From assembly GCA_004335635.1 (NCBI GenBank), contig QAXH01005559.1, positions 1 to 35,028 on the forward strand: DNA of 35,028 nucleotides, in the 5' to 3' direction. Every line of letters begins with the position of its first letter. The first letter of the stretch is position 1. Shown here in pieces: positions 3,984 to 35,028 of the stretch. The stretch is from Chloromonas sp. AAM2. Lineage: Eukaryota > Chlorophyta > Chlorophyceae > Chlamydomonadales > Chlamydomonadaceae. Below the pieces are notes generated by a model. The model was not told the DNA's origin. It did not search any database and saw only the letters and a program-made list of their open reading frames with translations. The position numbers were made by a program, and so were the translations under genes.

Positions 3984-6900
3984 ATGAATGCTGCCTCAAC
4001 CACGAATATCATCGGCGGGTCAGCGCGCAAATTAGTACGCCATACCTTGCCAGAACCTCGCGCAACTAGCCGTTGCAGCCGGACGGGACACACCCAATCT
4101 TGTACAAGTCATCACCTCGCTCGTTGCAACGCTCATGATAGTGATGCATTGTGCACGAGACGGGGATTTGTGTCCGGAGTTGCATCAGCTCTGATCCTCC
4201 CAAGCACGCATTGGGCAAACGCAGCCCCGAGTAAATCAAACGTGTGCCTGATCAACACATCGCCCAAAGCCAAGGCAAACGCCACTACTCTCATCCCCAA
4301 GATGCCAGTGGGTGGCAACCTGTTCATCTCTCGGGTAAGCACTAGGGTAAGGGGTGCCAGGGTAAGCATTAGGGTAGGGCGTTAGGGTAAGCATTATCAC
4401 ATTCTCTATCTTCTAGTGCGTACTTGGGGAAGGCACTGAAACGCCGCTGATCTGTGTGATCTTCAGTGTTGAACCACGCAGGTGTTCTTTGCATCTGATT
4501 GTGACGCTAGTGGGCTGCACTCATGCCTTGAACGAGTTGCTGCTGTGGCCGTTTTGACTGGCATGGAATTTCTGCTGGTCAGCGACAGTCTTGCTCAGGC
4601 TATGCCTTCAACAACCGTTGGGTGCATGCATCATCTAAACCCACCAAACCCTCGTGCCTTCAGGTGGTCAAGGGCTGCTGGCCCAGTGGTGCAGCAGGTG
4701 CCGTCCCCATGGACATTGCACAGTTCACCAGAGCAGGTGTGAAATCACTGGCTCAAACAGCACCAGGTCACAGCACTTAGCTCAGACAACGCTCCCTTTG
4801 GTGAAGTTGGTTGCCGTGACACATCCAGCACTGCTTGCCCGACCCATGCCTGCTCGACTGATTGCATGCATCTCCCGACAGGCTCTTGATGTGCTGCATT
4901 GCAATCACGGAATTACATGAGCAGTAGGCGCATGTCTTCCTGAGCCCGTGAACAAACATGCGGCTTTGCTGTACCTGTAACAGTGGACTGGCAACATTCA
5001 AAGTTTTGTCTCCTTTGCAGGCGTCACCACATTTGATACAGGCGACCTTGATGGCGGCCGGGCTGAGCTCATGATGGGCAACTGGCTCAGGGAACAGGCG
5101 CCTGAGGAACGGTCCAAAGTACAGGCACGTGAAGGCGTCTTGTCCGAAGCTTGATTTATTATTTACTGTGCATATGGGCTACCTTTGAAAGTTGTAGCTA
5201 CACTCAGCTACAATATCTAACCTGAGGAGTTTTTGTACCAAAGCCTTGTTAGGTGCGTTGGTCTGGTGAAGTGATCCTCGACCTTTGGTTCCGCTCTCCT
5301 CGCTACTTATATGGAATACAGTGGCAGTATGAGCATGTTCTTTGTTGGCAGGGCAAGAACCTTTCCTGAGAGGCTGATGCACAGGATTAGCCACTACACA
5401 ATGGGAGCTATCGGCAGTTGAATTTAAACACAGGCAAAGCCGCCACTGACCGACTCACCGCCCAAGCACTGGTTTGGCACAGCGACAGAGTGCCTATCTG
5501 TCGGTCCATGGGCTACTCCATGCCGGGGCTACTCCATGCCTGGGCTACTCCATGCCAATCAACTTGCCGCTGCTGAGGGGTTCAGCTGCATTTTCCGCCC
5601 AAAAGCCAATCATCACATGATATTGCATTGACCCACTGCACGAGTTGCTGTGCCAGTAACAGACGGTCACATGCACTGTTCAGGTGCTGACCAAGCTGAG
5701 CGTTACCAATGTAACCGCCATGGCCGCGTTCAGCAAGAAGGATGTCACCCAGGTGCGTGCATAGGTGCGTGCATAGGTGCTTGCACGCTGCAACATGGTT
5801 CTGGCATTACGAGTTCATGCCAACAGCTGACATGAGCAAGCAGCCTCATCTCATTGATAAACATTTGCGTGACAACAAGCAGAGGAGGAACATGTTTTGA
5901 TTCACTTGTTATCCAGCCATGTGGCATCATGGCTTCATAAGCAAGCATGCTATGCTGGTACGATTATGCAGGCACTGAGTGACAAGGCACGTGCCCTGGG
6001 TTCCCCTCCAGACCTGGTGCAGCTGTACTGGTGAGCCGACCCTGCCTTGGGCAGGAGCTGAACCTGCTTCTGGATTTATCTGTAGAGTAGCAGCCCTGTG
6101 TTGCTGTTCGTCAAGCCCACTGACATGGCTGCTGCTGTTTGGACCAGTCGCCAATGGCATCCTGTGCAGGGGCGCATGGCAGCAACCACGATGGTTGGAC
6201 GCCACCAAGTGGCTGGCGGATGAGCAGGCAGCGGGCCGCTTCAAGCACCTGGGCCTCACCAACTTTGATGTCGCTCAGCTGTCCCGGGTGCTGGATGCGG
6301 GAGTCAAGGTGGCGTCAGTACAGGTCGGAGCGCCGGGTGGCCACGGGCATGCACAGCTTCAGAAATGGACCTGCTGGAATCATGCAGCTGGATGGTATCA
6401 GGACTGGCAGTTGAACGGTACTGCAGTTCAGACGTGTGAAGAGACGTGTGAATGGCAGCGGCCCATGGGATGCACCATGATTGTGATAGGCCACAAGGAA
6501 GGGAATGAGGAATGCCACACATGGCAAGGGCTGAGCATGCACCTTATCTCAACACGTGAAGGGCTTCCCATCAAGAGAGTGGCGAAAGAATTGGTCCGGA
6601 GTCTTCATCACACATGGCTGGCATACGTATCAGCAAAAAGAAGTTTGCCAGTTCTGGGACAATTTGATAGGTTTTTTTTTGCAGTTTACTGTTATGACTG
6701 GCAATTTCTCGAGAGGTATGTTGGTACGCAACTGACTTCCTGGTCACAGCCATCACTCTTAACACCACACCTATCCACCTCTTTGTGTGCAGGTGCTTGC
6801 TTCGCTGGTGGACCAGCGTGCGGACGCCGCCCTGATCCCGCTGTGCCGCGAGCGGGGCATCCCTGTCCTAGCACAGGCACCCCTGGCAGGAGGACTTCTC

Positions 6901-8335
6901 AACGGCACACTCATGGGAAAACCAGCAGACAAGTAAGACGGTGGGGTTTGAACGTGAGATTCGTCACATGATCCGCACGCATGACAAATGCCAACATGGG
7001 GTGATCAGACAGCTTCTTTACACGTGAATCACAGACTGTTGCAAAGCACTGAGGCATGCAGCATTGAGGCATGCAGCCTGGCACGTCAGTGGCGCAATGC
7101 GTTAGCTAACACTACACAGTCTCTGCGTTGCCCATGCTGCGATAAAACCCACCAGCCCATCATTTGCACCTGAAGAAAAAAAAGATGTTTGCCAGTTCTG
7201 GGACAGTTTTCAAGGACGCCACTGGGATCAGTGTGGGACCATTGGCATACCATGCAATCACATGTCATGCGCTTGTCCCACAGGGCTCCATCCGACCTGT
7301 ACAGTGTGAAGGGCAAGTACGGCGCGTTGCTGCGGGGCGCAGGCCAGTGGGAGTGGCTGCAGCAGCTGCTCTCAGTCCTCGACACCATTGCAAGCAAACA
7401 CGGGGTGTCCATGTCGACAGTGGCCACACGGTAAGGAGGGTTGGCTGTAGCATGAATCTGTATACATCCATTGCCCTGGCTGGGGCTGAGGCCTAGGCCG
7501 TCATGTGGACCATATGCTGATGTAAAGTGGGTCTGATGACGCCATGGACAAGCTGCTGCCCAGGGCTTGCAGTAGCAAGGAAAATGGCGGCAATTTAGTA
7601 AATGAGGAGCACCCAGTTGTACAGCTGCATTAGGCCCGCTTGATCTGGTACCATTCCGTGTCTAAGCGAACATTGTGTAAATTACAGCGCCAGAATACAA
7701 TGGCATGCCTCTGAACTGGGCAAGACCCTTCTAATATCAAAGACAAAGAGACAAGCATATGCACGTGCACATCAACACACATGCACACCAGCGCTGCTAC
7801 TGAGCGTAGGGCTTGCTGCTGTGGTCTGTCCTCTGTTGTAAGTGTGCATCAGTGCACCAGGGATCACAGGCCACTGTCCCAGTATTGGCAGTCAACAACA
7901 CCAGCAACACATCCCGTGACATTCAACATTCATTTATGGACAAAGCCACTGGTTACTCTCCACAACATTGGACGTCTCATCACTGAGTCACAAGGAACTG
8001 GATGCGGCGGCCATGATTGCACTGGAAAGGCAAACATAAACCATCTAAGTAGTAGCAGTCACACACAAGAACTGTCCCAGAACTGGCAAACTTTTTTTTT
8101 TTTGGTGGCTGCTGTATTGTGGTCTGACAGGTGGGTGCTGGACAAGCCTGGCGTGGCTGCCGTGGTGCGCCCTGCGCGGCTGACCACCCCCGAGGGCCTG
8201 GCTGCACTCTCTGCGCCCTTCAAGTGGAGGCCGGACGCAGAGGACAGAGCCATGATCAATCAAATACTGGATCAAGGAAGACCTACTTCTGGTGAAGTGT
8301 ATGACTTTGAGCGCAGCTCAGGGTCCTTCTGGTGA
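3984..8335 (+). CDS. Aldo/keto reductase family protein, predicted chloroplast/thylakoid lumen
   Basis: Nine exons: 3984-4334, 4664-4736, 5021-5118, 5684-5752, 5972-6030, 6170-6323, 6793-6932, 7284-7430 and 8131-8335. All have GT-AG introns and matching phases, giving 431 aa. Residues 1-81 look like a transit peptide followed by a twin-arginine signal (RRGFVSG at 59-65, hydrophobic stretch, ANA-A near 78-81). The reductase barrel begins with NLFISRVVKGCW. Family landmarks follow: TTFDTGD (144-150), VLTK (175-178), PDLVQLYW (210-217), LGLTNFD in exon 6 and GIPVLAQAPLAGG in exon 7. The family reduces carbonyls with NADPH through an Asp-Tyr-Lys-His tetrad. Asp147 and Lys178 are present, but the Tyr position appears to be Asp152 and the His position Tyr216, so normal activity is doubtful. 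The end of exon 3 (AAA/GTACAG) is the least certain junction. Confidence 0.9.
4335..4397 (+). repeat. Tandem 5' splice-site-like repeat at start of intron 1
   Basis: Intron 1 of the aldo/keto reductase gene opens with GGGTAAGCACTAGGGTAAGG and continues with more GGGTAAGCATTAGGG-like units. Four or five GGGTAAG-type donors therefore follow the one that keeps the frame (GT at 4335). The unit resembles a telomeric TTAGGG motif but is internal and irregular. Confidence 0.75.
5510..5556 (+). repeat. 15-base tandem repeat in intron 3
   Basis: GGGCTACTCCATGCC occurs three times in succession, the units separated by zero or one base, inside intron 3 of the aldo/keto reductase gene. Confidence 0.85.
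5752..5788 (+). repeat. 12-base tandem repeat carrying donor sites, start of intron 4
   Basis: GGTGCGTGCATA is repeated twice, with a third partial unit (GGTGCTTGCA). The first unit contains the working donor after CAG at 5752. Each further unit repeats the donor-like GTGCGT or GTGCTT. Confidence 0.8.
6526..6586 (+). repeat. Direct repeat D, copy 1 (intron 6)
   Basis: About 60 bases match 8454-8513 at roughly 80%, including ACACGTGAAGGGCTTCCCAT here against ACACGTGAAGGACTTGCCAT there. Both copies continue with a CAAGA, GTGGCGAA-type tail. Confidence 0.75.
6635..6712 (+). mobile_element. Family-A element, copy b (intron 6)
   Basis: The left arm AAAAGAAGTTTGCCAG and the following TTCTGGGACAATTTGATAGG match copy a almost exactly. 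A T-run follows. CTGGCAATTTCTC near 6698-6710 may be a diverged right arm, which would give an element of about 78 bases, close to the 82 bases of the copy at 34217. Confidence 0.65.
7175..7212 (+). repeat. Family-A repeat, copy c (intron 7)
   Basis: An A-run followed by GATGTTTGCCAGTTCTGGGA and CAGTTTTC. This is a left-arm-only copy inside the aldo/keto reductase gene. Confidence 0.75.
8070..8103 (-). repeat. Family-A repeat, copy d (intron 8)
   Basis: On the minus strand an A-run of about 12 bases leads into GTTTGCCAGTTCTGGGACAG. It is the third copy inside this gene and the only one of them in reverse orientation. It ends about 27 bases before the exon 9 acceptor, so its T-run could act as a polypyrimidine tract. 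Confidence 0.75.
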
Positions 8336-8702
8336 TGCACTCCAGCAGTTGTGATGACCACATGGGGTGCCCCACGATTGTTGGTCGTGCTTCATCACAT
8401 GACATGCGCCTTAGTAGGCTAAGAGGGGGGGATGAGGGGTGCTTTACATAAAAAGGGTGAGCATTCACCTCCTCACCCACACGTGAAGGACTTGCCATCA
8501 AGATGGTGGCGAACAACGCAGCAACCGCTAACAGAGCAGCCAGGGCAATACCACGGAGGCATCCAGAAGCCTGCATGATGCCCTGTCTAATGTCTGCGGT
8601 AGAGCATAGACAGTTCAAAGCAAGTTCTATCTCTCTTCTGATGAACGCTGCTGGACTGTCAGTCAACTGAAACTTGGGTTTATTGGCGCTGAAGTTGCTC
8701 AT
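8283..8702 (-). CDS. Possible small membrane protein (weak)
   Basis: An ATG at 8702 opens a frame of 139 codons with one clear hydrophobic segment (GIALAALLAVAALFATILMA) after a stretch rich in Cys and Arg. A donor-like GGGTGAGG near 8477 could end the first exon there. If the frame is read to its stop, it overlaps the last 53 bases of the reductase coding region in convergent orientation. It also overlaps repeat D (8454-8513). I do not recognise a family, and the frame may be fortuitous. Confidence 0.22.
   Translation of the reverse strand: MSNFSANKPKFQLTDSPAAFIRREIELALNCLCSTADIRQGIMQASGCLRGIALAALLAVAALFATILMASPSRVGEEVNAHPFYVKHPSSPPLSLLRRMSCDEARPTIVGHPMWSSQLLECITRRTLSCAQSHTLHQK
8454..8513 (+). 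repeat. Direct repeat D, copy 2
   Basis: Second copy of the roughly 60-base segment at 6526-6586. It lies just beyond the reductase stop codon, in its probable 3' untranslated region. Confidence 0.7.
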
Positions 8703-8710
8703 AATTCCAG

Positions 8711-9903
8711 GTGTGTTTTGCCGCCTGGCAGGTGGCGAGCAACTTTACGCAACTTCTCCATGACCCAACTCACCCGCGGCTTGGCTGCTCAGCCCTGACC
8801 ATCCCTTTTTGTTCCTGCTCGATGGTCGGCTTGCTCTCAGGCTGTCGCCACCCTAGGAATTGTCAGGCCCCTGCACGGTCGCCAACTCAGGCCCAGATTT
8901 GTTGCTCGTCCGTTGTTTTGGGCTTGAGACGTCAAACACCTGTCAGCCATCATCGCCACTGCCAGGCCTTGCCATCAGAGTTTATTTCCCGTTCTTTGCT
9001 TCTACCTGCACCTGCTCAACCCATGTCTGACAGCCTTCGGCAGTACGCCGGCCTCTGTTTGTCCACAGTGCTTTGACTTCTGTGTTTTTTGCTCGTTGTG
9101 CCTTGCAGCTGCCTTCTGTTGCTCACAGTTGGTTAGGACGGTATCCAGCCTCGTCTCTTGCTTGGCGTTAGGTCCCGGCCACGGGCGCCCCTGACTCAAA
9201 CTGTGTGTGCTAGCCCATGTGAACTACTCTGCCAAGACCAACCAAGACCACGTTGCTCACCCAGTTTCGCGCTCAAGTCTCCACCTTGCTGTGCCAAGCT
9301 CATGGCATGCCTGTCCACTTTTGCACCTTGCTATGCTATGTCAGGTCAATGTAGCAGCTTACTGTTTGTAGCCCCTCCAGCGGACAGGCCGATCTGGACA
9401 CGTTGGTGGCGCTGCGTGCCGTAACTCAGTACAGTCAGCCTGGCAAGTCTTGAGTAACAGGTGGCTTGGACGTGTCGAAAAGAACCCAACGGACCTATCA
9501 AAACAACCCAGTTCTGGCAGGCGTTACGCCCTTTCGGCAAGTCCAAGGACAATCTTGATGCAGCACCCCCCCCGTCTGTTCAGCGACAGTAGCGGCATGT
9601 CTGGCGTACTCGAACAGCGTTGCAAGTTGCCAAGCGCGACATTTTTCGACGCGCATCTAGGCAGCCAGGCAGCAATCGCCAAGTGCGTTCTCGTGCTCGG
9701 ACTATCGTTGGGCCTTGACCGCTCGTAAGTTTGTGAAGTGAGTCTTGCAGACGGCCGAGGAAGTGTCAATGGAAACGATGTAGGTGGACTACTGTTTCTG
9801 CCCGGCGCGGCAGGTGCGGCCCAGCTCGCTATGGCTGATGGATTGGCCTTGACCGAAGCTGGGCCTGCTAAGCTCTCATCCAGCGCCGTCAACTTGCCTG
9901 CCG
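8711..9903. other. No confident gene; possible upstream exons
   Basis: Several frames of 60-120 codons overlap on both strands with no consistent splice pattern. One ATG at 9831 in good context opens MADGLALTEAGPAKLSSSAV, which looks protein-like. I could not join it in frame to the next exon, so it is left unassigned. Confidence 0.35.
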
Positions 9904-11612: not shown

Positions 11613-14600
11613 ATGGATAGCGATAGCAGGCGAAGGAACAAATGGAGTGCACAGGTGGGCGGTTGCGTGACACTTGCTACTTACCAAGAACCAAGATGCC
11701 AGGCTTTCGTACAAGCGTTGCATTTGGATTTGCGACGCAGGAAGACGAAGTTATCGTTGAGCACATCCAACAGCATGGCCCCAAAGACTGGGCGAAACTG
11801 GCACAGGTGCGCGATAAGAAGCCAGTCACATCGCTGATGCCCTGGTCTTGTTCACAGCTCCCGCTACAGCAGCCTTTGCGAGTGCACACCGGTACCCGCA
11901 GAATCTCGAAGCTAAGCTCGGAGGCTCTAGGACGGCGAAATCGTGCCGACTCAGGTGTGGTCGCTTGGTATTGATTGTCAGGCGCAGTGGAAGCCGCAGC
12001 ATCAGCACGGCAGTTGCTGTTGGTCTTGAATACAAACAAGCTGTGCTTGGCTACAGCTATGCGGTCCACACAGTGCCTGTTGATGATATGCCTGTCCTGC
12101 TGCACGCAGGTGGTACAACGAACTGACACCCACAATCAATCGTACACCATTCAGCGAAGAGGAGGTGTGTGCGATGAACATCACATATGCAGGCTGCCCC
12201 CAGCTATTGTTTACCCTCTCGACCTTTTGACCTCTTAAACATTGAAACTTGACCATGTTGGACAGCATTGTCACACGGCAACAATCATGCCTGTAATTAG
12301 GTCTTGGTGCCGCACATGTTTACTAAGCTAGTGATGTGGTTGCGGCCAAAAGCAGCTCTAGCCTGTATGCATGCAGTAGCAGTAGTAGTGATATCATTTA
12401 CTGGCTTATATCAACTTGGAGCTGTTCCACATTTTCAAGCCGTTCAATTGCGTGTTTGCGTTATGCATGTCTATTGAAAACAAAGTTTGGCGGGGCGAGG
12501 GAAGGCTCCAGTTCATTTACCATTGCCAGGGGCATCTCAATGGTCTCATTTTGGCAAGGCAAGGCACAACTGTCCTTGTGGAGATATCGTTCCGTGTGGG
12601 GTATCAAGCCCACTTCACATGGGCTTTGGTGATCGCGTGTAGTGCGTCAGCCCGGGAAATGTACAGAGCTCGGACCTTGGAATGTCAGAGGGCAGTGCAA
12701 GTGATCCAAACTTTGGTAATGTATGAAGATTTGGGTACTGTATGCAAGACCGCAATGAGAATGCCCTGACTCATGTTGTTGACGGCTTGCCGAAATTCCC
12801 CCGTGCAATGTGCCAGCACGGCCACAGTGCCAACAGGGCACAATCATTTGCATGTATGCCTGCCACTTCACGTGTAAAAGTACACGACACCTTTTGGAGG
12901 CCTTCCTGTTCAAACCCCCTGTGCCTCTGTAAAAAGAGGGCATGTTTGATAACACGCGTCTCCACACACGCAGATGACGTTTGTGATGCGTGCCGTGATG
13001 GCGCACGGCACCACCTGGTCGAGGATCAGCATGGAAATGGCAGCGGCTGGCATGGCAGGCAGGACAGACAACGCCATCAAAAACTGCTGTGAGTTGCAAC
13101 CTGGCCACACATGTTTCTGTGTGTGTGATTGACAGGGCACGAATTCTATCTGACACACGCTCGCAATTCACATTTAAACGGTATCCGCGCTCGTTCTGGA
13201 CTGCAGGAGTGTGTGCTGGCATGCATTGTTCTGCTTTTTGTTCTACTCTGTCCAGTTGATCAAGGACAAGGTGTGAATGGCACCTACCTGCAGATCACGT
13301 GAGGCTGAAGAAGGCCATGGAAGAGCAGGGTCTGAAGATTGGTGCGGGCTGCAGGCTGACACAGACAGGGCACGCGCCGGTTCTGTCTGTACCAAGTGGG
13401 CTGAGCTCAGGTGGGCGGATGTATGTGTACACCACTGGATCGGTCAGCTTGCAACAAGGTGCGCAGTGCATCAAGCAACATACCATGAGAAGTAGGCAGC
13501 GCATTTGCTGCACAGCACCTAGCCGCTTTTGTGATGACAGCGGGTTATTTGTGTCGACCATGCATTGAGAGCCTGGGATCATCTCTGTGTAAATCTTGTC
13601 AGCCTAAGCGCTGTTCTTATTTCAGGCAGATCTGCGCATCATGGATAACCTGGCTCATGACTCTTGTTGCCTTGGAATGTCCGTGTCTGCTTCAGGTGGC
13701 TTGGGCCAGAGTGGCACAGTTGCCAATGACTTGCTTGCCGTGGCAGGCACCAGCCAGGACAGCACACAGCATCTGGGCCCAGTACAACTTTTAGCCAACG
13801 GGAGGCTGCAGCACATCGCAGTGCATGAGGCTGGCACAAGGCCCAGCCGCTTTGCCTCTCACCTCAGCCACCCAGCGCCCTCACAGTCACAAACGGCCGT
13901 CACATTTGCTATGGACCACCTCGACCTCGCTTCACTCCCCTTCAGCACCTCAGTCCAGTCGGTGTCGGGCGATCCCCGGCCTAGCTCATGCTCGCATTTG
14001 GACGTGAGCGCTCCCAACAGTGGCTACAGCTCCCCCCTGGCCTCTCCAAAGCGCAGTGCACAGGATTCCATCAAGCATCGGAGGGTGTGCAAGCGTGCCT
14101 CCCGCCTGCGCATGACAGAATCGCCTCAGCCTCAAAGGGACGCTCTAGATAGCGGCCAAGAAGACGCAGGTGGGTTTGTACGATTTGTGGATGCATTCAC
14201 TGCTCCGTCATCTGCGATATAGATGTCGGAGGATTTGAGCAGTACAGTCAAAACATATGGGCAGTCTCAAGCAAGACGCCTTAAACATTGCAGCTTTGTG
14301 GGGCTCATGACTTGGCCAAGCAGTCAAGTGCAGCGTTTTCAGGCCTGTCGTACTTGACAGGGTGACTTGAGTATGCGGACTGGTCCAATGGCTGTGCTAG
14401 TTCTCCTCGAGCACCTACACACAAGTGAAACACAGACATGCACCCGACCATGATGCAAGTGACAGCATTCAGCATTCAGCATTCACAAAAAAGGGGACCA
14501 GCCATTAGTTGTAGTGCCCACCTTTGCAGCAGATTCACCCGGGGTTTCTGGGCCCGAATCTGCCCTGGGGCCGTTTTGGCCTCCTTGCTACTTCACGCAC

Positions 14601-18480: not shown

Positions 18481-18783
18481 CGTCATGTTACAAGAGTTAG
18501 CAGCTATTAGCTATTCAGCACCATGATATCATAACCTCAAGCAAGTAATGCAAGTCATAACGGCAGAACAGGGTTTTGTATCCACAGTGTCCAGTGGAAA
18601 GTCACGCGTGTGATCATTTCACGCTTTCACGCAACGCACCAATGCAACTGAAGGCAGTTCAACCTCATTGGCTGTGGCTCAGTCCATTCAATGGTGTTGC
18701 CAATCTTGAAGGCAACAAGTGCCGCCAGCTGAAGCTGTCAGTCACCAGGGCAATAGTGGGGTCGATCACCAGGGCAACAGTGG

Positions 18784-18832
18784 GATCATGGGCTTTGACG
18801 ATCGCGTGTAGTGCGTCAGCCCATGTGATAGT
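18784..18832 (+). repeat. Dispersed repeat B, copy 2 (partial)
   Basis: Contains CATGGGCTTTGACGATCGCG then TGTAGTGCGTCAGCCCATGT, the second half of the unit at 12581. Just upstream, a 24-base segment (CACCAGGGCAAYAGTGGG) is repeated twice. Confidence 0.75.
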
Positions 18833-19888: not shown

Positions 19889-19927
19889 AACAATTATCCC
19901 AGAACTGACAAACATTTGTTTTTGTAG
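19889..19927 (-). repeat. Family-A repeat, copy e (diverged)
   Basis: The minus strand reads ACAAATGTTTGTCAGTTCTG then GGATAATTG, a diverged form of the shared GTTTGCCAGTTCTGGGACAATT block. Confidence 0.6.
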
Positions 19928-19983: not shown

Positions 19984-20068
19984 TGAAGATATCGTTCCGA
20001 GTGGTTATAAGCCCACTTTACATGGGCTTTGATGCTTGCGTGTAGTGCGTCAGCCCATGTAATGTATG
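19984..20068 (+). repeat. Dispersed repeat B, copy 3
   Basis: A near full-length copy with GAAGATATCGTTCCGAGTGG, the palindrome AAGCCCACTTTACATGGGCTT, and GCGTGTAGTGCGTCAGCCCA. The two ends of the best-aligned part differ from copy 1 by only a few bases. Confidence 0.8.
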
Positions 20069-23700: not shown

Positions 23701-26254
23701 GGTGGTGCGCTCGGAAGACATTGGGGAGGCATTGGATACATTAACTGAACGAGATGACGTTGCCTACGTAGGCGATGTGTGGTGGCTGGGCTGTGGGTTG
23801 GCTCAAGAAAGCTACAGCTAAGCTGTTGGCCTGTTCCACAAGCGCACAGCCCTTGTTTTGCACTACAGTAGGCGCAAGTGCAGCGCAGCCCTGCAACCCA
23901 GCTCTGCCAGCTTGAGCAAGCAAGCCTGGATGCGACGTTATGTCCACCTCAAGCTCCACCATGAGCCTTGATTGCTCTCTCCTGCCCAGGTCCTGAGTGC
24001 CAACCATGCCCTTCTTGCGCTGTGGGGCAGCGATGTGCTTGTGCTGTTCCTGGCGCTGGAAGACTACCTCATTTACACACCGGCCAAGACAGCAGCACAG
24101 GTGAAGCTGACAGGGCACAAGAGCCAAAGCTGAACCTCGAGTAACGTAGTGAAATTGATTATTTGTTGCGGGATGAAATATAGTCTATACGGTGGTGAAA
24201 TAGGCCGTGACCTCCTTGATTGGTGTGAAAAAGCACTGAACTTGTGCATCGGGTAGCTTTGAAGAGCGGAAAGGGCGCATGGTTGTTACCCAATGATACT
24301 GTCTGTTGATGCCACTCACTTTCATGCCTGACGTGTGCTTGCCTCCCTCAAACGGCTTGCCCTGAGTCCTGCTGCGCTGGCAACAGGCATTCGCCAAGTG
24401 CAGTCCTGGTGTTGAAGGCACAAGAGAGCTAGCGGGATTGCAGGTGAGAACCTGTCATGGGATTACATGTAGGGAACTGACAATCAGAGAACATTGGCGT
24501 GTGCAGCACTTGCTAGCCATATCCGTTGCGATCCGTTACGTTACAGGAAGTGTGCACAGTGTGTTACCCTGCACCAGGGGCTGTGCTGTGCCACATGCAA
24601 GGGCTGTGCTTGTCAACTTCTGACCTCCGTGCATCAACAGCTCAAATACAGGCAAAGTATGACAAACTCAATCGTTAAAGCCAGCCGAGCTCAATGCATC
24701 CAGTGATATTAAGTGCCTGCCTGGAGGGACGGTGCGTCTGACTGTATGACGCAACGTTGCTGTGCTGTCCTGCTGCAGATCGGCGTCCACGAGGCCACGT
24801 GTCAGCAGGCCCCTGTACCTGCATGCCAGTCCACAGCTGCTGCAGACGTGCAGCAGGACGCGGTGAAGCAAGCCCTGGACAGCATGCAAACACTCACCCG
24901 CAACAGTGGCTCGCTCAAAGGCAGTACAGGCATGCTGGTGGTGAGTCATCAGGACTGTTACAGGAGCCTTTGTTACGTTCATGAGCGAACGTCCTCGGGG
25001 GCGAAGAGGACGAACAGAGGGCGCTGGTGCCCAAATGTGGCCACAGGGCTGACAGGTCACAGGCGTTCTTCTCACTCTGACGTCACGTACATGCTGCGCA
25101 TTAGGACTGTTGTTCACCAGGGTGTAGCTGCGTGTTGGAGGCCGGTGCAGTAAGCCTTCTGGCGAGTTCTGCAATGTACGGCGATGCAATGCATGAGGAC
25201 GGAGTTGCTGATAGTCAGATCATGGTCGGCATGGGCTGTGCAGGGCTGAGAACGACTGGCTTCAAAAACACGCAGCTCGGCAGGGGGGGAATTTAAATAG
25301 AGAATGACCATATGAGGGAGTGGGTATCTTCGAACCACTTGTACGAATGCTGACGGTGTAAGGAGCTCGAATCCAAGGTTTCAGGTCATTCTGAGATGGT
25401 TGAGTGGGTGGTATAAAAGTCCTCCAAAAGGCCCGAGCTACTTTTTTTACCTTTTTGAGTATTTCTTGTTCTACGGCTCAATCAAAGCGAATACAAGGCT
25501 TTTGAAGACGTGGCTGGTTGCAGCTCGTTAAGATCTATCCAAAATCACCTTCATTTTCCAGATTGGCCTTGTGGGTGGTTTGTTATGGGCTGGGGAAGTG
25601 TCAGAGGGTGCCGGCCCTGGCGTGACCTGCGGCGCCAGGCCGCAGGTCACGCAAGCAGCGATCCAAAGTCGGACGCAGAGCGGGACGTGCTTGCATACCT
25701 TGAAAGTGAAGTTTACCTTTGGCATGCCCCCATAGCCTGTGACATGTGTGGCGATTAGGGTTTGATTAGGGCCGCCTGGGCTTTGATGACCCATAAGTGA
25801 GGCAATGTTCAAGTGAAATATGCAACCAAGGGGAACAGCTTTCGATTGAGCCCCTTTTCATGTGATCCTGAGCCGTTTCTGGGTGGGTTCCAAAAGTGGT
25901 CCAGTTTTCAAAAAGCCGAGGCCATTTTTGATCATAGGGTCACGGACTTTTTAACCACCACCCCTTCCCCCGCCTGACCTCGGCGACACAAATTGTTGTT
26001 TAGGCAACAGTGCTTGCACGTCTTTTCCAAGCCAGCACTCAGGCAGTGTTTGTCTCCACTAAGCGACCTGCGCCGCACCTTGTTACTGTGTTAACAAGAT
26101 GTTATGTCGTCATCGCTCGCAGGATCCAAATCTCGTGCTGGACTTGCATGTCAGCTCCTTTCAGGCCTGGCCCGGAGCGCGCATGGTGCAAGCCGATGCC
26201 GCATGCCTGCGGATTGTGCACATATCTGATGTCATGGCATCTGACTCAAGCTAA
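20743..26254 (+). CDS. GT92-like (DUF23) glycosyltransferase, secretory pathway; partly resolved model
   Basis: The ATG at 20743 gives a clear signal peptide (MLKLLLLVQLAAITYAALEG); exon 1 runs to about 20998. Well-supported later exons, all phase 0, are 22266-22325, 22612-22773, 23026-23187, 23558-23668, 23990-24100, 24779-24940 and 26123-26254 (TAA). Family-like motifs are YARLLAHHMAWHAQLGVARY with LLYCHR, then ANHALLALWGSDVLVLFLAL with EDYLIY, and a closing DPNLVLDLHVSSF with AACLRIVHISDVM. Known GT92 enzymes transfer sugars to glycans in the secretory pathway. The usual Asp-rich motif (DxDEY-like) reads ALEDY here, so metal binding may be altered. Exons between 20998 and 22266 (candidate 21277-21376) and between 24940 and 26123 are unresolved. 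The assignment rests on motif resemblance only. Confidence 0.6.
21148..21200 (+). repeat. Short tandem repeat AGAGGTGGATG
   Basis: Three units of AGAGGTGGATG joined by AGCTGT-type spacers, in an intron of the glycosyltransferase model. Confidence 0.75.
25302..25425 (-). repeat. Dispersed repeat C, copy 2
   Basis: The reverse complement of this segment matches 3665-3790. It includes a TATAAAA string near 25412-25418; the other copy has a weaker TGTAAAA. It lies inside the proposed last intron of the glycosyltransferase gene. Confidence 0.8.
25620..25652. other. Perfect 14-bp hairpin
   Basis: GCGTGACCTGCGGC, a 5-base loop (GCCAG), then GCCGCAGGTCACGC: a perfect GC-rich inverted repeat within the last proposed glycosyltransferase intron. 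It could fold in RNA or be a remnant of a foldback element. Confidence 0.85.
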
Positions 26255-27662
26255 GCCAAGCACAGAACAGTGCACAAGAACACACCGTCATGATTCTTTA
26301 TTGTATTGTATGGTAGGCAGGGCTTGATGGCCAAAGCAGCTGACACACGCCATGACTCAAATGAGAGTGATGCAGGTTCACAGAGCACCGACAACATGTT
26401 GAATAGCACCTTTTCCTTAACACCTGCATAGTTTTCATTGCCAGTCTACATGGACGGCTTCGTGATGGTTAAATCTCGAAATCCAGCACAGGACTGTGTG
26501 ATAGTTGGTGGCATTGGTTGTGATTTCAGTCATGGCTGGGTCTGAACATGGAATCACTGGGCATTATAGTGTGTAGCAGCCGTGCCACATGGAGCATCAG
26601 AGTAATGAAGGGTTGTCCGTTGCTGGCAGTAAACCGCATCGCAAGCCATGTGGCTCCTGGTACAGAGTTTTCTGTCACAAGGCGCTTGGCTCTTCTATGT
26701 GCAGTCAGCGGCCCATGTCATATGCATGGCCATTCACCAGCACCTGGCTGCCCTTGTCACCAGGCTGTGCTGAAGGAGGACTTTGGATTGTAACGTATGG
26801 TGTGCGCGCTACACACATGGCACATTATGAATCAATCAAGGCTGCACTTGCTTTGTTGTATTATCCATTCATTCATGGTTGCCACTTCGTGCAACCAATC
26901 GTCTCTGCAGTAACAGCAGATACTGATGCAAATGGTAGCCAATCCAGGTTGCAGAACCCGGCTGTCATGCATTGTCAGGAAGTGCCAAATTGTCAATGTC
27001 AGCCCAACAAACCGAGCGCTGTATAGGCTCTCAACGTTCCCTCAATCATTGTCGCTCTTGACAACGGAATTAAACAAACGCTTGCACGCCTGCCGACGAG
27101 GGCCAGCATAACATGCAAGTGACACTGCTGCTTGAAGCCCATGCTGTCAACTTGCTCATTCAACCCTTTTGAACTGAGCAGTGTATTCAACTTGCACATG
27201 CACTCTCAATCACAAGTGCCACGTCACGCACGCGTGCGACATGTAACCTAATGCACATGCCCCACAGGTGCTTTCGTAGTGCCGAAGTGCTCGTGGAGAG
27301 GCCACAATGCCAAAGGTCAAAAACAAGCACTGGTGAAGCTTGCGCAAGAAACACAAGGACCCAGTCAGCTGCTTTCAACTTTGGACAGCAGTCAGAGTTC
27401 GCGCCATTCAACATCTCCAGGCCATGCGTTGAAAGTTGCTCTGCTGGCTGATCACCAAACAGGCAACCAATCGCATTTCGTTCACCTGCGTGGCACACGT
27501 TGACATGTCTAGTTCTTTTCTAGCTCTTCCTGGAATGCTTAGTGGTAGCTGCCTCATCGCCATTGCCATGTGCCAGGTTGAACACATTCTGGCTGGTGCT
27601 GGCTCCCAGCTGTCGTTACCAGCCTAGCCCCCAGCAGTGTATTGTTTAGCGTGAAATGCTGT
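26255..27662. other. No confident gene
   Basis: Open frames at 26589-27026 (+) and 27187-27498 (-) lack recognisable motifs or supporting splice sites. The left part is presumably the glycosyltransferase 3' untranslated region. Confidence 0.35.
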
Positions 27663-28119
27663 TCAATGTGTGCTTTGGTGATGTCTTCCATAATACATCC
27701 GGAGTACGAGGGACTCTGCCCGCTTGACCCTGTGCCACGCTGGCATTGGCAGGCAATTACAACTCATTGCTGCTGGTGGCGTTGGACCTTCTGCAACAGC
27801 CATTCGACTCCTCTTGCGCGGACGTAGCGGCAGCCTTGCGTGAATGGCGACGCATCAGCCGGCAACTGGCGTCCTGCGAACGCGCACCCGGACTCTGCGC
27901 TGGGTATGGCTGGGCATCAGATAGTCATGGAACGCGCAGCCTTGACTTACCAACTGTGGACTTGTACACGAGACTGTAGGAGTCTCTGAAACCGACATGA
28001 TTGATCGGCCTGACCTCCCAGTGGTGCCCAAAAAGGCGCAGCGATGCTTCGTCCTTGTCCCGCTTCGGTTGCGTTGTCTGTGTTTGTTCACTAGCGGTGA
28101 CTTTCTTGGGGTTGTCCAT
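27663..28119 (-). CDS. Putative small protein, two exons (weak)
   Basis: An ATG at 28119 opens MDNPKKVTASEQTQTTQPKR, followed by a stretch with LRLFGHHWEVRPINHVGFRD and SYSLVYKSTV, ending at a consensus donor (G/GTAAGTC) at 27951. A phase-compatible second exon, 27739-27663, would read WHRVKRAESLVLRMYYG and stop, giving about 81 aa. I do not recognise the family. A competing plus-strand frame at 27757-27903 (LREWRRISRQLASC) runs through the proposed intron. At most one of the two is likely to be right. Confidence 0.3.
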
Positions 28120-28974
28120 GCTCGCTCCCCGGATCTGAAACGGGAACAGCGCAGTTTGCGGAAGTAGCGACCAATGCTTGATCAGCGTTCTGACGTTTGT
28201 GTCATGTCATCAACTCCTTCTCATGTCAAAGTCAGGGGCTGCTGACGTGGCGGCCACACATGGCGGCCATATCACGCAGCCGTCACCGTGCCCAAGTCAG
28301 ACTACGACCCTACACCCCCCATGTCACGCAGCCATTCCCCATGGTTCAACTTTCGGTGAGAGAGCGACCATTAGCACTGTGTTCCAACTCAATCCAACTG
28401 AGCACCTTGACCTCGTCTGTGCAAGCAATGGCAAATGCCATCGTATTCACCTCACTGCATCAGTATGGGAGCACAATGGCAGCCATCGACAAGCAGCACC
28501 AAGCCTCACAGCTTGTTCACAACTTATGCAACAACCACACTCGTCCTCGTAGCCACACTATAGTCAATGCTTGAGCAATCAACGCAGCTTCAGCAATTGA
28601 TGCAGAATCGCTTTGGTACTAGAGGCATCAATATCACTGTACCAGAGGCATCACTTATTATACCACAGACTCATCGAACATTCTCAAAAGTGCCAGATAT
28701 AAAAACAAAGTCTCAAAATAACGTACGTGTCACTACACAGGGTTTCCATGGCCATGGTTCCGCCCACAAATGCCATGCTGACGCCCTGCGCAATGATCAT
28801 TTACCATTCTATCCGTGTTAGTTTCCACACTGCTCAACGCTATGCACTCAACTTCACAACGCTAGCTCTGGAACTACAACTTTGCAATGCTGGCTCTAGG
28901 GGGATAAGCAGCTCCCTCAGGAAACACGCTGGTAAAGATGCACAAAAATTGCTCTTGTGCAAGCGCGGTATGTG
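28120..28974. other. No confident gene
   Basis: Two long plus frames overlap at 28178-28574 without motifs. The right end is the probable 3' untranslated region of the viperin-like gene. GTAC-AGAGGCATCA occurs twice near 28616 and 28639. Confidence 0.35.
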
Positions 28975-31900
28975 CTACATCGCAGCCTGCGCTGCTACAG
29001 CAGCAGCTGCCTGGGCTTCTTCCCTGCTGTGCATGTCCGGGCCCTGCCCGTAGTCCCACACGCCGCCCCGCTTCACAAAGGTGGGCGCATTGAAGAACGG
29101 CGCCACGGCAGCCCATGCACGCGGACCACCCACCTGTATGAAAGCAGCACAGTGCAATATGCATTCATGCAGATTGGTGTGCATGCAGATAATTCAGGCA
29201 CTACACCATACAACAAGGCGCCCGTCCGTACAAGGCGCAAGCCAAGGGAGAACTCGTGACGGATGTTGTTTGTTGCTCAGGCAGGTAACAGATACACATT
29301 CACGGGGTTGTCTCTTTGTACAGTGACGAGACATCAGCTGGCTCACTGTGCGTGTGATGGTGCCAGTGAAGATGCCTGCTTTCGCACGCGGCACTGACCT
29401 GCAGCACAGAGGGTCCGTACTTGTGACCGGTGGAGCAAGGCGAGCTGCCTGCTGCGTCCGAAATGGTGTTTGTGAAGAAGCTGCAAGGGACCAGTCACAA
29501 CGTTGTGGCCCAGATACTGGACAACATGAGATCTGTGTGAGCTCTGCGGTGCAGTTGGTTTGTGTGCATGCCGCGGCCCAATTCTTTGATGCTTTGGTAG
29601 TTTGTGCTTTGTATGCCCAGTTTGTGCTTTGTGAGTGCATGCTTGGCATCCTGCCATTACACTCATAATTTGTACCACCCAGCCATGGTGTGCGCCTGCT
29701 GTTGCCCGAACCTGTGTGTCTGGCCTGCACTCACCAGCCCCTGGCGTCCATCATGGCTGCATGCAAGCACGAAAACACACAGACTTGTTGGCAAAGCCCA
29801 GAACTATGCAGACTTCATCCATCATGCACTCAACTGACTTGAGCGCAGGGCGCACATCTCAACCTGCAAACAGGCAACCTGCTTCAGCTTCACGATTGAT
29901 TTCTTACTCGTCTGGCTGTCCCGCCTTGCCTAGATGCACCACTTGCCCCTGCCGCCCCAGGAGTGCAGTGCACTCACCGTAGCTGCCCCGCATGGTTGCG
30001 TTGTCCTCCGGCACCACGGGAATGCCGCTGCCCTGAAGACCTGCCTGGGCGCGACCCACGTACCTGCAACATCACAACATTACAACATAACATTGTCTTC
30101 TGACTTTGTGGCACTGACATAATGTGTTTTTCATTACCACTTTGTAGGACTGGCAGCCAGTTCGCACCTGTCACGACACATCAAAATATGACGTAACTCA
30201 CACTTTGAATTGCTCGGGTGAGATGAGCAGGGGGTCGATGGACCCTGTGTTCTGACCCTCCACGGGCAGGGCCTGCGCAGGGCAGAGCAGTCTCTAGACA
30301 ATCAGTTCGCAAGGGTGGCCGCAGCACGGCCCAGTGCTGACGCAATGTAAAGACGGCTTGCACTGACACCTGAGCAACTGCACTAGCTTGCCTGAAAGAT
30401 TTTCCATCGTGCTGGAGCCATGGCCGTGACAAGCTCTGTCATGTCGTCCTCGCAGTTGAGGCGGGTAACCACCTGGGTGCAAAGGCGGGCAGGCAGGTTA
30501 ACATCGGTGAAGCGCGCCGCGCGCGAGCTTGCCTCGTGACCAGGTTGCGAGGTCCGGGTCGCCTTCGTTTGTCGCTTTTCCTCCGCCTCGTTCAACATGT
30601 CACCCTGCCCCAGCCTAACCTCAGCCAGGCGCAACAAGCTGTCGTCTGGTGGCTGAAGCCGTGATCGTGCGGGAAGCTCGTGCACATCGCGTATGCATAA
30701 AGTTACGTAGCGCCTGGAAACATCTGCACCCAAGCGACGACGGAACAGAGCTGCCGACTAGGTCACGGCACCCACCGTATTGACTTTTAAAGTGATGCCC
30801 AGCTCGTGCGCCAGCGGGCACAGCCCTAGAATGCGTGCAAGATGCGCATTGCGCGGCGTTGATATGTCGCCAGTGGACTGCGCGCGCATGGATGGGCAGA
30901 TGTGTAAATACGTGCGTGCGACTCAGTCATCATACAAAAGGCTCAGTAAACACAACCATATAATCATGCGACAAACAGGATCTAAACAACCCGTTTGTTC
31001 AGCGGCAAGTGCAGCTGCTCAATTTTCAACTGCGGTGCTGATTTTTGTGCGGCAGGACCGCCTGTGCTCGCGGTGTGCGGTGGTCCAGACCTGCAGGCTG
31101 CAGCTCCGTTAGCTCCTTCGTGCAACCGGCAACACCGCCAGCATACCAATGTATATCGTTGCAAGTTGATCTCACATGGCGCACCTGAGTGTCAACTGAC
31201 ACAACCTCGTGGTTGAGGCCCCTGCCCAGGCTTGCATGCAGAGCATCAGTGCTGGCGTCTACTGAGAAGGCCAGTATGTCCAGGGATGCTGCGGCAGAGT
31301 GGCACAGCAAATCGTTGCGCCGCATGTGTTGCAAGGCAAGAATGAACAAGGCGCTTACTCAACGTGATCTTTTAACAATACTAAACTTCGCCGTCACTAT
31401 TATTATTATTCGGTTGATCACCTATGTACGAACACCAGGCTCTGACGATGTCGTGGCGTAATCCATGTAATGTAAACCATGGCAAAGCTAGTCTAGTAAT
31501 GCCAGCTGCTGGCGTTACCTGAGAGGTCGCGAAGCCGTCTGGGCGTCAGCAAACTTCCGTTGGTAACCTGAAACGTACAAGGATTGCCCCTTGCTTTGAT
31601 CAAAAATTGACGAAAACGTGTGTCGCTTGACACGTTTCTGGGCGGCTGAGTCTGTCACACAACGTGTGTTGATCATGACTGCGTGGACGGACTATGACTC
31701 GACGTTCACGTCTGCTCACCAGGCAGGTGTTCATACCCAGGTCCTTGGCTGCGGGTATGAGCTTGTCGATGCTTGGGTGCAGAAGAGGTTCACCACCAAC
31801 AAAGGTAATGCGCGTGAAGCCCAACGCCTTAATTTCCTCCAAAATCTGTGCAGTATATGACAACATGCTGTTGCTTTCCGAGCGAGTAGCAAACGGACGC

Positions 31901-32471
31901 GCTGCCTTGGCAACGGTCGGCGAATGCACCGCGTCCCACCTCGGGCGCTCGCGACACTGACACAGCCTGGTAATTCTGAGTTCAGCCTGATATCTGTATC
32001 CTGCCAGGCCTTACGTTCATCATACTTCCCAGCTGCGCCAGTGCCTGCGACTTGTCGATGTCCTCGAACGTCGCAAAGCAGAATCTGCACGGAATTATCG
32101 CGCATCAAAACAGCCATGTACAGCACATCATGCCACTGCACAAAAGGCATCCTTTCTGTGACTGCACAAAATGCAAAAGCTGGTTGGTTGCCGTGGTGAA
32201 GCGAAGTGAAAACCCTAAAGATTTCAAAAGCTCAACTCAGGTTATCCGAGAACGTCGTCACTTACCTGCAGCTGTAGTTGCAGCTGGGCGTGAGATGCCA
32301 GTTCACTGTAGGTGGCACTACTTGTGGACTCGACCCCAGCGCTGCAACCATGCTTTTCGTAGGCGTGCTTCTTTTGACCAACCAGCTGGGTGTGTACAAG
32401 CTCCTGAAGCCGCTGCCTTTCGCCGGCAAGCCATGGAAGCGCGGTCGCTTGAGGTATCGCTGCATCTGCAT
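28975..32471 (-). CDS. Viperin-like radical SAM enzyme (ddhNTP synthase family)
   Basis: Twelve exons on the minus strand: 32471-32266, 32084-32015, 31845-31720, 31567-31519, 31288-31185, 30877-30776, 30472-30392, 30272-30202, 30063-29978, 29756-29735, 29480-29399 and 29133-28975. All phases agree, giving 385 aa; human viperin has 361. The [4Fe-4S] cluster motif CNYSCRFC (Cys64, 68, 71) is followed by GGEP (109-112), NGS (137-139), LDILAFSVDA, GRG (172-174), KVNT, then DDMTELV and ARWKIFQALPVEGQN, in the order seen in viperin. FVKRGGVW (352-359) matches the conserved C-terminal region. Viperins use SAM to convert nucleoside triphosphates to 3'-deoxy-3',4'-didehydro forms that block polymerases. 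The N-terminus is basic and could be an organelle leader. The tail is Ala-rich and lacks the terminal Trp of animal viperins. Intron 7 has a GC donor. The start could lie further upstream, since the frame stays open. Confidence 0.93.
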
Positions 32472-32479
32472 GGGCAATG

Positions 32480-33260
32480 ATCTCGCCCGATTCAGGTTGC
32501 AATAGAGGCGCAGACTCAGAGAATCAGAATCTCGGGCGCAGCGCGATAAGCTGTGCTATCTCACAGATAGAGACAACAGCCTAGGCAAGTGCGCCTGTGC
32601 CTGTGCACCGAAACGGCTGCGCCTGTGCATAAACACAGCCCGTGCACACACTTGTCCAAGGAAACTGGTCTAATCAACCATGTACAACAGTGTATATTGT
32701 ATACGTACACAAGCGCAAGGCAACGACGTCACATACAACAGTGGCGCAACCTGAGTTCTGCTCCTAAAGTCTGTCGCTTGCGGAAATGTATCCAAACTTC
32801 TGAGATCTCTTGGGGTAGCCCGTCGATGGCCCGAGGTATCGCATTCATGTTCACTCGGCACCGGGATTGTTGATCAGCGCCGAGACCATGGCGAACCGTT
32901 CAGCCTGCAGGCAGCGTTGACGGAAGCAGGCAAACTTATAGCGCTGCAATCCCTGTGGACAGAACCTTGGGACGCTTGTCTGCCGTCGTGTGTCCAATTG
33001 GTTAGTGCTGTCAGCACCGCCGGGGTCCGCACCTCTTTTGAAACTGTCACTCGGCGCCCCAGACGGGGTTGCCACGCCACATACCACACTACACTCCTCG
33101 GCAGTCAGGCGTCTTCGTCACCACTCAATCATCGTCCATACCTCAGCCAAGTAATCAGTGCAGCTGGGGAGCACGAGCAAGTGCATTTCAAATCAACTGG
33201 AACGTGCATACGTCGAGCCAACCACACTTCGACCTGCCTAGTTCGTACCAACTGTCGCAA
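32480..33260. other. No confident gene; viperin-like gene upstream region
   Basis: Frames on both strands (for example minus 33089-32874) overlap without recognisable motifs. A 5' untranslated exon or promoter of the viperin-like gene probably lies here. I could not identify a nucleotide-kinase-like neighbour. Confidence 0.35.
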
Positions 33261-33521
33261 ATGTGTCAGGCAACAAGACACAACAAATATAATGTCGCGC
33301 TGGAACAGGCCTTTCAGAGGCTTGAGCATCAGTATTGCCACCTTCACACACCAGGTGAGGCCAAAGCAGGTGGCTGGGTGGAGAAAGCAGTGCATGGCTG
33401 TTGTGGTGATCCGGACAAGCTGCTGCCTATCATGTCGTGGGTGGACTTGTTAGACTTTGCAGCGGTAGCAGTACAATACAGAGTGCTTTGGTCTTGTCTG
33501 AAGAAGGGATCTCTTGTCTGA
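33261..33521 (+). CDS. Hypothetical short open frame
   Basis: The ATG at 33261 opens 86 codons ending in TGA at 33521. The product includes ALEQAFQRLEHQYCHL and LLPIMSWVDLLDFAAVAVQY, which look protein-like, with an amphipathic or hydrophobic C-terminal half. The frame is open upstream to about 33069 and might be an internal or last exon. A donor-like CCAG/GTGAGG occurs inside it near 33353. No family is recognised. Confidence 0.3.
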   Translation: MCQATRHNKYNVALEQAFQRLEHQYCHLHTPGEAKAGGWVEKAVHGCCGDPDKLLPIMSWVDLLDFAAVAVQYRVLWSCLKKGSLV

Positions 33522-34213
33522 ACACGGCTGCAGCACTAAGAAATGTGTCGGAAGGGCACAGAACTACATAGATCACAGCATCATGAGGGCGTCGTGTACT
33601 CTTCTTGGTCGAAGAAACTCAGTTGCTATGGGGATGAGCTAGGGGTCAAACAGACCTGGTCGTGTTCAGTCAGCAAATTGTAACAGAGTTTTGAGTGGTT
33701 TGGTGTGTCTATCGCGGAGGTCACTGGGCCTGTTGTTACAGATAGGCAGGCGTCTGCCAACCAACTCCACACTCTGCACATTTGCCGGCAGGGCCAGCGA
33801 CAGTCCAACGTCACTTGAAGCAGTGTGGAAGGCAAACAGTCTTCACGCCCAACACCTACATCTCTTCCAATGTGTCATTCGGCTTCCCCAAAGGGTGTTA
33901 GGACAAGAATGGGCGATGTCAGGCCAAGCAGACGCAGCCTTTTGTGTCCAGTGCTTATGGTAACTGCTACCCCTGCATCTGAGCAACTACTCTAAAGCGA
34001 AAACCTTCAACAAGCCGACACAAACGAGCATGACGAACTGGACGTCGTTGGAGGCACGGAGGTGGTTATTGGTCTTAGCCTAGGCCCTGAGAGCGACCTA
34101 CAAACAGCCTATGGCCGTGCAAACAACAATGACAAGCACACCGTTCGCTCGGGTCAGACCCAAGCAGTGAGGCACACCGATCAAATCGAGCAGTCAAAAT
34201 ACCAGCCGCCCAA
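33522..34213. other. No supportable gene
   Basis: Short frames only, with no recognisable motifs or splice pattern. Confidence 0.4.
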
Positions 34214-34216
34214 CGA

Positions 34217-34298
34217 AAAAGAAGTTTGCCAGATCTGGGACAATTTGCAGTGGCACCACTGAGACCAGTCTTGTGATGTGACCTGGCAAACTTCTTTT
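34217..34298. mobile_element. 82-base terminal-inverted-repeat element (family A, full copy)
   Basis: Perfect 16-base inverted ends: AAAAGAAGTTTGCCAG at 34217-34232 and its reverse complement at 34283-34298. The inside shares ATCTGGGACAATTTG with the partial copies elsewhere. The size and structure fit a miniature inverted-repeat element. No clear target-site duplication is visible; CCAAC occurs just outside both ends and may be chance. There is no coding capacity, so any transposase would act from elsewhere. Confidence 0.8.
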
Positions 34299-34301
34299 CT
34301 T

Positions 34302-34692
34302 ATCCAACCTACAGCTGCTGCAGCTTTTGCGGCATTGGCATGCAATTTTGAAAAGGATGTACGAGGTATGGGATGCGATTTGCATACGCCAGGACTCGCC
34401 ACCTAAACCTCACCCATACCTCTGCTCCTGCGAGCGATCCAAACACAAACACAATCTGCAAGCAAGCGTCTCTCTCCTTTGTCGCATCATGCATCATCTC
34501 CTCAAAAGAATCCCTCACTGCACCTAATGTGGTGCGGCCTTCCTAGGCGCACACAACCCGAACCACAACCCGTGCTAGGCCCTGTTCGAGGAAAGCTGCC
34601 TGTTGCCCAACCAACCATACAATACGATGGCATTTGTAGAATTGCTGCAGGTTAATCATCTGCAGCCGGTAGTAGTATGACAAGGTAATTCA
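34302..34692. other. No supportable gene; 3' flank of the Gln-rich gene
   Basis: A minus frame at about 34518-34309 and a plus frame at 34327-34527 overlap without motifs. Part of this is probably the 3' untranslated region of the gene that ends at 34693. Confidence 0.4.
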
Positions 34693-35028
34693 TTAATGAT
34701 TGGTGTGGTCTGATCCACTCATGTCGCCATGCTGTGCCGCTGCTGCCTGTGCTGCTTGCTGCTGCCTCTGCTGTGCCAGAAGCACCTGGTACATGTGCAT
34801 CGCAGGTGCAGCTCCCATACCGCTGAACGGCAGGCTTCCTGCCACCTGTGAAGTGTCTGCATAATGCCCTCCTGCACCTCCCACTGACCCCTGTCCACCA
34901 AGCATCCCACTGTACATGGCTGACTGCCCCTGCAGCTGCTGCTGCTGCTGTTGCTGCTGATGCAGCCAGCCGCCCACTGTCTGCTGGTCAACCAGCATAT
35001 CCATGGGCTGCCCTCCACCACCTTGTGA
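34693..35028 (-). CDS. Gln/Ala-rich protein, C-terminal exon (partial)
   Basis: The frame is open from the right edge of the window to a TAA at 34695-34693, giving 112 codons including the stop. It encodes a low-complexity C-terminus with a run of eight Gln, Gly/Met-rich spacing (MYSGMLGGQGSVGGAGG) and a second Gln/Ala tract (LLAQQRQQQAAQAAAA), ending GDMSGSDHTNH. Such tails are common in transcription factors and co-regulators, but no DNA-binding or catalytic domain lies inside the window, so the function is unknown. The Gln run is encoded mainly by CAG repeats and may vary in length. Confidence 0.7.
   Translation of the reverse strand, partial: SQGGGGQPMDMLVDQQTVGGWLHQQQQQQQQLQGQSAMYSGMLGGQGSVGGAGGHYADTSQVAGSLPFSGMGAAPAMHMYQVLLAQQRQQQAAQAAAAQHGDMSGSDHTNH

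Follow-up and report, generated by a model that had tools for sequence, protein, structure and literature searches.

A viperin gene of prokaryotic type with a diverged second copy in a green-algal genome

Viperin makes nucleotides that stop RNA chains and so acts against viruses in animals and in microbes, and the locus described here raises the question of whether a green alga carries such an enzyme as a nuclear gene and, if it does, from which lineage the gene came. The locus lies in a window (the whole stretch of DNA analysed, 35,028 nucleotides) that corresponds to contig C1645 in an assembly of 74.4 Mb and 2,324 contigs, and in which a first-pass annotation, made from the letters of the sequence, had pointed out a complete intron-rich viperin homologue. 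From our comparisons we consider it very probable that this gene encodes a nuclear green-algal radical-SAM viperin (a ddhNTP synthase) that belongs to a prokaryotic-type clade and is present in two copies that have diverged under purifying selection. The gene, its family, its conserved residues, the paralogue, the selection, and the placement are what the present analysis establishes.

Gene model and family identity

On the minus strand, between 32471 and 28975, we reassembled the whole gene, start codon to stop codon, as 12 exons that remain open throughout and encode a 385-residue product when modelled from the first in-frame ATG. Exon 1 as modelled (32266..32471, 206 nt) encodes an N-terminal extension and the first part of CNYSCRFC, exon 2 (32015..32084, 70 nt) contributes the third cluster cysteine and FCFATFEDID, exon 3 (31720..31845, 126 nt) carries the ITFVGGEP motif with GGEP at 31786-31797, and these are followed by exon 4 (31519..31567, 49 nt) with VTNGSLL, exon 5 (31185..31288, 104 nt) with FSVDAS...LGRG, and exon 6 (30776..30877, 102 nt) with LGITLKVNT. 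Exon 7 (30392..30472, 81 nt) reads VVTRLNCEDDMTELV..ARWKIFQ and precedes a GC-AG intron that is common to the paralogue; exon 8 (30202..30272, 71 nt) encodes ALPVEGQNTG, exon 9 (29978..30063, 86 nt) encodes VVPEDNATMRGSY, and exon 10 (29735..29756) is a 22-nt microexon for AMMDARG whose length and phase are equal in the paralogue (C28:10067-10046). The last two exons encode FFTNT...KYGPSVLQ (exon 11, 29399..29480, 82 nt) and FVKRGGVWDYGQG with the C-terminal tail (exon 12, 28975..29133, 159 nt including the stop). Every intron has an AG acceptor (11/11) and all except one have a GT donor (10/11), the unusual GC donor being that of intron 7. The motifs CNYSCRFC, GGEP, NGS, GRG, DDMTELV, ARWKIFQ, and FVKRGG keep their order in the product. 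The twelve-exon gene read by the first-pass annotation was reproduced exon by exon, with the same plan in the paralogue.

Against curated models the product passed the NCBIfam equivalog for prokaryotic viperin (NF038283; 240 bits versus a cut-off of 180, E-value 2.8e-71), matched the PADLOC model pVip (233 bits, E-value 7e-70), and failed the animal viperin (RSAD2) model TIGR04278, where it scored 125 bits against a cut-off of 450. With phmmer, the Thermoplasmatota protein P0013 scored 241 bits and the crystal chain 6q2p, which we take to be mouse viperin, 118 bits (E-value 4.3e-33). The best nine PDB chains matched over ~300 residues, five of them being named viperin, viperin-like, or RSAD2 and the remaining four carrying just the name 'Radical SAM core domain-containing protein'. 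The viperin identity is borne out by the prokaryotic cut-off, by pVip, and by these PDB chains.

The cluster cysteines C64, C68, and C71 (CxxxCxxC) are kept. Six residues of mouse viperin that are presumably sites for nucleotide binding or catalysis (R194, K220, N222, R245, K247, and Y302) align with identical residues in the window protein (R173, K216, N218, R241, K243, and Y298, respectively); a seventh presumed site of this kind, mouse K120, aligns with R104, and the residue is Arg in both copies and in Chlamydomonas UWO 241. The window protein has its cluster motif, phosphate-side residues, and membership of the radical-SAM family in common with animal and fungal viperins (RSAD2; 6q2p, Trichoderma and other fungi) and differs from them in falling below the animal cut-off, the opisthokont proteins forming a clade of their own.

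A second copy and the 5' end

A search of the genome with an early 378-residue version of the protein gave 20 exon-sized matches, all on C1645 and on a second contig, C28; the search scored 22 candidates, so further viperin copies are not strictly excluded. On C28 the gene runs from 14375 to 9108 on the minus strand with the same 12 exons in the same order, and it agrees with the window copy in all intron phases (11/11), in the 22-nt microexon, and in the GC-AG intron 7. Because the C28 copy repeats exons, phases, microexon, and GC-AG intron, it lends independent support to the exon model. Thirteen DNA blocks common to the two copies touch 12/12 exons (exon 1 in part) and extend mostly some tens of bases into the introns (the longest ~80), and most intron lengths differ strongly between the copies. 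The two proteins are 77% identical, with the same residue at 287 of 373 aligned codons, and the 227 nucleotide differences in these codons fall 55/51/121 on positions 1/2/3. Our own Nei-Gojobori count gave dS 0.56 and dN 0.16, that is, an overall dN/dS of 0.28, which falls to 0.23 when the core is taken by itself. The third-position excess and the low dN/dS argue, at the level of sequence, for joining of the exons and for selection on the product. A dS of 0.56 rules out that the two copies are alleles, and it is unlikely that the window copy is a pseudogene, given its open frame and a diverged partner at this dN/dS. The C28 copy, with no start codon in its exon 1, stays open to doubt as a possible pseudogene.

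Searches of the genome with family models were of little help: the radical-SAM Pfam search hit five places, all outside the viperin exons, and with the model for animal viperin there was no match in the genome, a negative that says little since both known copies were missed too. Such exon-wise family searches evidently miss these genes.

The missing start codon bears on the 5' end of the window gene as well. Just inside the assumed exon 1 of both copies there is an acceptor-like stretch (TGCCCATGCAG in the window, TGCCCCTTGCAG in C28), and the C28 exon 1 has no in-frame ATG; together these make an upstream coding exon likely. The window gene model is therefore probably incomplete at its 5' end, with a 5' exon missed, and the first 6 nt of exon 1 may be intronic instead; the C28 copy would work only if an upstream exon exists. 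We enumerated ATG-to-donor stretches in phase 0, 30 nt or longer, within the 800 bases upstream of each copy, which left three candidates in the window and 11 for C28. By judgement we picked a pair, MHRRSRFGAQAQAHLPRLLSLS at 32630-32565 in the window and MLRQFPCSSVADGGRTVGRVR at C28:14602-14540, the latter having the best donor score (4) among the C28 candidates. The window member (32565..32630, minus strand; 22 codons, phase 0, joined to the acceptor before 32465) is basic and has no acidic residue; it is outscored on donor, 4 versus 3, by a rival at 33186-33142 (676-nt intron). With such a rival, an upstream exon is probable while the choice of exon is not settled, and 32630-32565 is perhaps the one used here.

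Animal viperin has an N-terminal amphipathic helix for the endoplasmic reticulum and lipid droplets. The first 50 residues of the window protein contain nine Lys/Arg and no Asp/Glu, and with the candidate exon the extension has 13 Lys/Arg and no Asp/Glu in 70 residues. The corresponding counts of Lys/Arg and Asp/Glu are 10 and two in 61 residues for the C28 copy with its candidate exon, three and zero in 42 for C. reinhardtii, and 12 and two in 107 for C. schloesseri; the Raphidocelis viperin has a short extension only, and the archaeal P0013 and P0036 have none. Judged by composition, the window extension would suit a transit peptide.

That the host is a photosynthetic eukaryote, a green alga, as had been supposed, agrees with the chlorophyll a/b-binding protein matches in the genome (30 listed) and with the green-algal names of the best named relatives. 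A 21-base word, AAGTTTGCCAGTTCTGGGACA, occurs with near copies six times in the window (352-372, 6641-6661, 7185-7205, 8073-8093, 19895-19915, and 34222-34242) against 0.01 expected; it has 1,879 exact copies genome-wide, versus none for the reversed word, and probably belongs to a short mobile element of very high copy number. Since this word is found throughout the genome and on both viperin contigs, contamination is unlikely. Other features of the window are two adjacent pairs of inverted repeat arms at 3658-3808 and 25282-25431 (83% over 94 nt and 91% over 56 nt, with ~21.5 kb between them), which probably represent one dispersed repeat present twice; a 58-nt direct repeat in three copies (12606-12663, 18775-18832, and 20009-20066, the second 67% and the third 88% identical to the first); a piece of an aldo/keto reductase gene on the plus strand at ~6763-6924 (PF00248, 35.3 bits); and, by eye, a glutamine-rich coding-like stretch on the minus strand at 34700-35028 that runs past the window end.

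Relatives and possible origins

A protein search found 504 matches among 7,998 scored candidates. Among the 120 matches listed, the four best with a named organism (ranks 1, 2, 4, and 9) were from green algae, and archaeal names among the others were Thermoplasmatota or Euryarchaeota. The green-algal proteins (Raphidocelis Rsub_10128, C. schloesseri HYH02_012656, C. reinhardtii CHLRE_03g196300v5, and Chlamydomonas sp. UWO 241 FOA52_013893) are 42-51% identical to the window protein and form one clade with it, sharing CNYxC(K/R)FCFATF and RGG(V/L)(Y/W)(D/E)(Y/W)GQ; they differ in that the Chlamydomonas proteins have inserts and the window genome has two viperin copies. When the genomes of 84,980 prokaryotic species were scanned, 120 relatives came up, of which 80 were retained; the top five loci, all Poseidoniales (which we take to be Marine Group II archaea) or Euryarchaeota, had 39-41% identity in their best segments. 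Judged by sequence similarity, the closest relatives are green-algal proteins and then Poseidoniales archaea. The archaeal proteins P0013 and P0036 have the same aligned active-site residues as the window protein but Lys at the K120 site and read CFAR where the algal proteins read CFAT; Poseidoniales viperins are encoded by single reading frames as opposed to 12 exons.

For trees we took 49 of the 80 genome loci, hand-picked for spread (one, L042 with 105 residues, fell out), together with six of seven viral loci, 18 other proteins, seven fungal proteins, and the mouse chain. Removing eight rows that were long or isolated, together with 12 similar rows, gave a 67-row tree, and a 62-row tree was built also without L095, L096, L067, L078, and UWO 241. 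The seven algal rows formed one clade at 99/97 in the 87-row tree and 100/98 in the 67-row tree, and six of them, with UWO 241 left out, at 100/100 in the 62-row tree. Algae, viral rows, and Poseidoniales grouped at only 83/84 in the 87-row tree, where several long rows were present; in the 67-row tree the algae joined two viral-contig rows at 95/92 and the set adding Poseidoniales had 100/99, and with the viral rows removed (62 rows) the algae, Poseidoniales, and one metagenomic row again had 100/99. Opisthokont viperins stood apart as a 100/100 clade in the 87- and 67-row trees. The first-pass annotation had proposed a search against RSAD2 and prokaryotic viperins with a tree, and by both the protein groups with prokaryotic-type viperins. 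In AU tests, the p values of which are weakened because we defined the groups with the first tree already in view (the bacterial and ancestral groupings are also hypotheses of PMC10732462), a branch separating the algae together with 30 rows of bacterial type (mg_P0047, two rows from viral contigs, and 27 loci of bacteria or cyanobacteria) from all others was rejected (p 0.0146), as was a join of algae with cyanobacteria (p 0.0006); algae with four Asgard-like rows (L061 being named only 'archaeon') gave p 1.8e-5, and algae with Poseidoniales without the viral rows p 0.126. Algae with opisthokonts (animal, fungal) gave p 0.059 (0.157 when the smaller set was used) and so were not rejected. These comparisons point to archaeal rather than bacterial nearest kin, and the opisthokont values leave an origin separate from the animal lineage favoured, unproven.

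The viral contigs themselves (L095, 1760-2644; L096, 3715-4596; and L101, identical to L096 in the 87-row tree) carry an open archaeal-type viperin frame that falls beside the algal clade. No useful host marker was found in eight reading frames of L096. A virus carrying an archaeal-type viperin is worth attention.

Green-algal viperins are already published, and to these the present analysis adds a duplicate, a placement with the archaeal type, and a possible N-terminal address. Culbertson and Levin 2023 (PMC10732462) describes 194 viperin-like proteins in 158 eukaryotic species, with two Chloroplastida clades inside a bacterial clade at ultrafast bootstrap >80; the second, mostly Chlamydomonas, is attributed to bacterial transfer and, from its genus names, is probably the clade (Clade B) that includes our chlorophyte proteins. 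Clade A of that study, near cyanobacteria and likewise green-algal and attributed to transfer, differs from the algal rows here, for which a cyanobacterial grouping was rejected in trees built without Clade A sequences. A 2026 review in J Virol cites Shomar et al. 2024 (Nat Ecol Evol) for Chlorophyta viperins. By title and the start of the abstract, the literature on viperin with algae or Chlamydomonas held no archaeal origin for the algal clade, although Shomar et al. 2024 may contain one; that on viperin with Poseidoniales gave only work on viruses of Bathyarchaeia, and that on residues setting the choice of CTP, UTP, or GTP gave nothing usable.

Several other accounts of the protein have to be set against these results. 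Membership in another radical-SAM family such as MoaA or the NrdG activase, which the first-pass annotation had named as a placement that would speak against viperin, would explain the shared radical-SAM core and the low scores with the moaA and NrdG2 models (63 and 42 bits, respectively), but these lie far below the cut-offs of 284 and 131 and the viperin match reaches the C-terminal RGG motif; we give this reading almost no chance, a rejection made by score alone, as the trees held no MoaA rows. An ancestral viperin of animal/fungal type, inherited from the last common eukaryotic ancestor and not transferred, is allowed by the AU test with opisthokonts, whose branch is long in trees that hold no protist viperins of the main eukaryotic clade. 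We nevertheless think it unlikely, given the 100/99 support for algae with Poseidoniales in both pruned trees (67 and 62 rows), a prokaryotic model score above cut-off beside an animal one far below it, and a phmmer score for P0013 about twice that of the mouse chain. The idea of a copy of the animal-type gene likewise finds no support in score or tree, with the AU test leaving a join with animals and fungi possible. A bacterial source, as proposed for Clade B in PMC10732462 on the strength of its bootstrap-supported nesting of both Chloroplastida clades, seems to us doubtful in view of the AU rejections of bacterial-type rows and cyanobacteria and of the top five loci in the genome scan. We tentatively put forward, as a possibility, that the green-algal viperin had its source in Marine Group II archaea, or in viruses with archaeal-type viperins, and not in bacteria, and that it later gained introns, an organelle-type N-terminal address, and, in the lineage of the window, a duplication.

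Proposed function

By analogy with the viperin family we infer the ddhNTP reaction, the substrate, and the antiviral use. A [4Fe-4S] cluster on C64, C68, and C71 would cleave SAM, and the resulting 5'-deoxyadenosyl radical would abstract the 4'-hydrogen of an NTP, at a guess most likely CTP or UTP; loss of water would then yield a 3'-deoxy-3',4'-didehydronucleotide (ddhNTP), which would halt RNA synthesis by viral polymerases. The antiviral role against algal viruses suggested by the first-pass annotation may follow from this chemistry, and kinship to viperin alone does not prove immune use. Asgard viperins have been expressed in E. coli and challenged with phage T7 (PMC11291487). A search for a linked nucleotide kinase gave no Pfam match at an E-value of 0.001 when 24001-28900 and 32472-35028 were read in six frames, and in 1-24000 the search covered the three plus-strand frames of 5500-9500; the only thymidylate-kinase-like match in the genome, from an exon-wise search of limited reach, is on C1646 and below cut-off. 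A viperin-derived enzyme with a non-immune role, e.g., making a modified nucleotide for regulation in an organelle, would fit two copies retained under purifying selection and a basic, acid-free N-terminal extension that P0013 and P0036 do not have; as the aligned active-site residues are kept and we know of no viperin with a non-immune role, we regard it as distinctly unlikely.

With the reading of the gene as a viperin of prokaryotic type, one more alga, and one with two diverged copies, joins the few green-algal cases. If the archaeal derivation were true, algae would have domesticated an archaeal immune enzyme, possibly acting inside the chloroplast or mitochondrion. The homologue in C. 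reinhardtii, a laboratory alga, makes the use of ddh-nucleotides against viruses in the plant lineage, and the compartment in which it would occur, directly testable.
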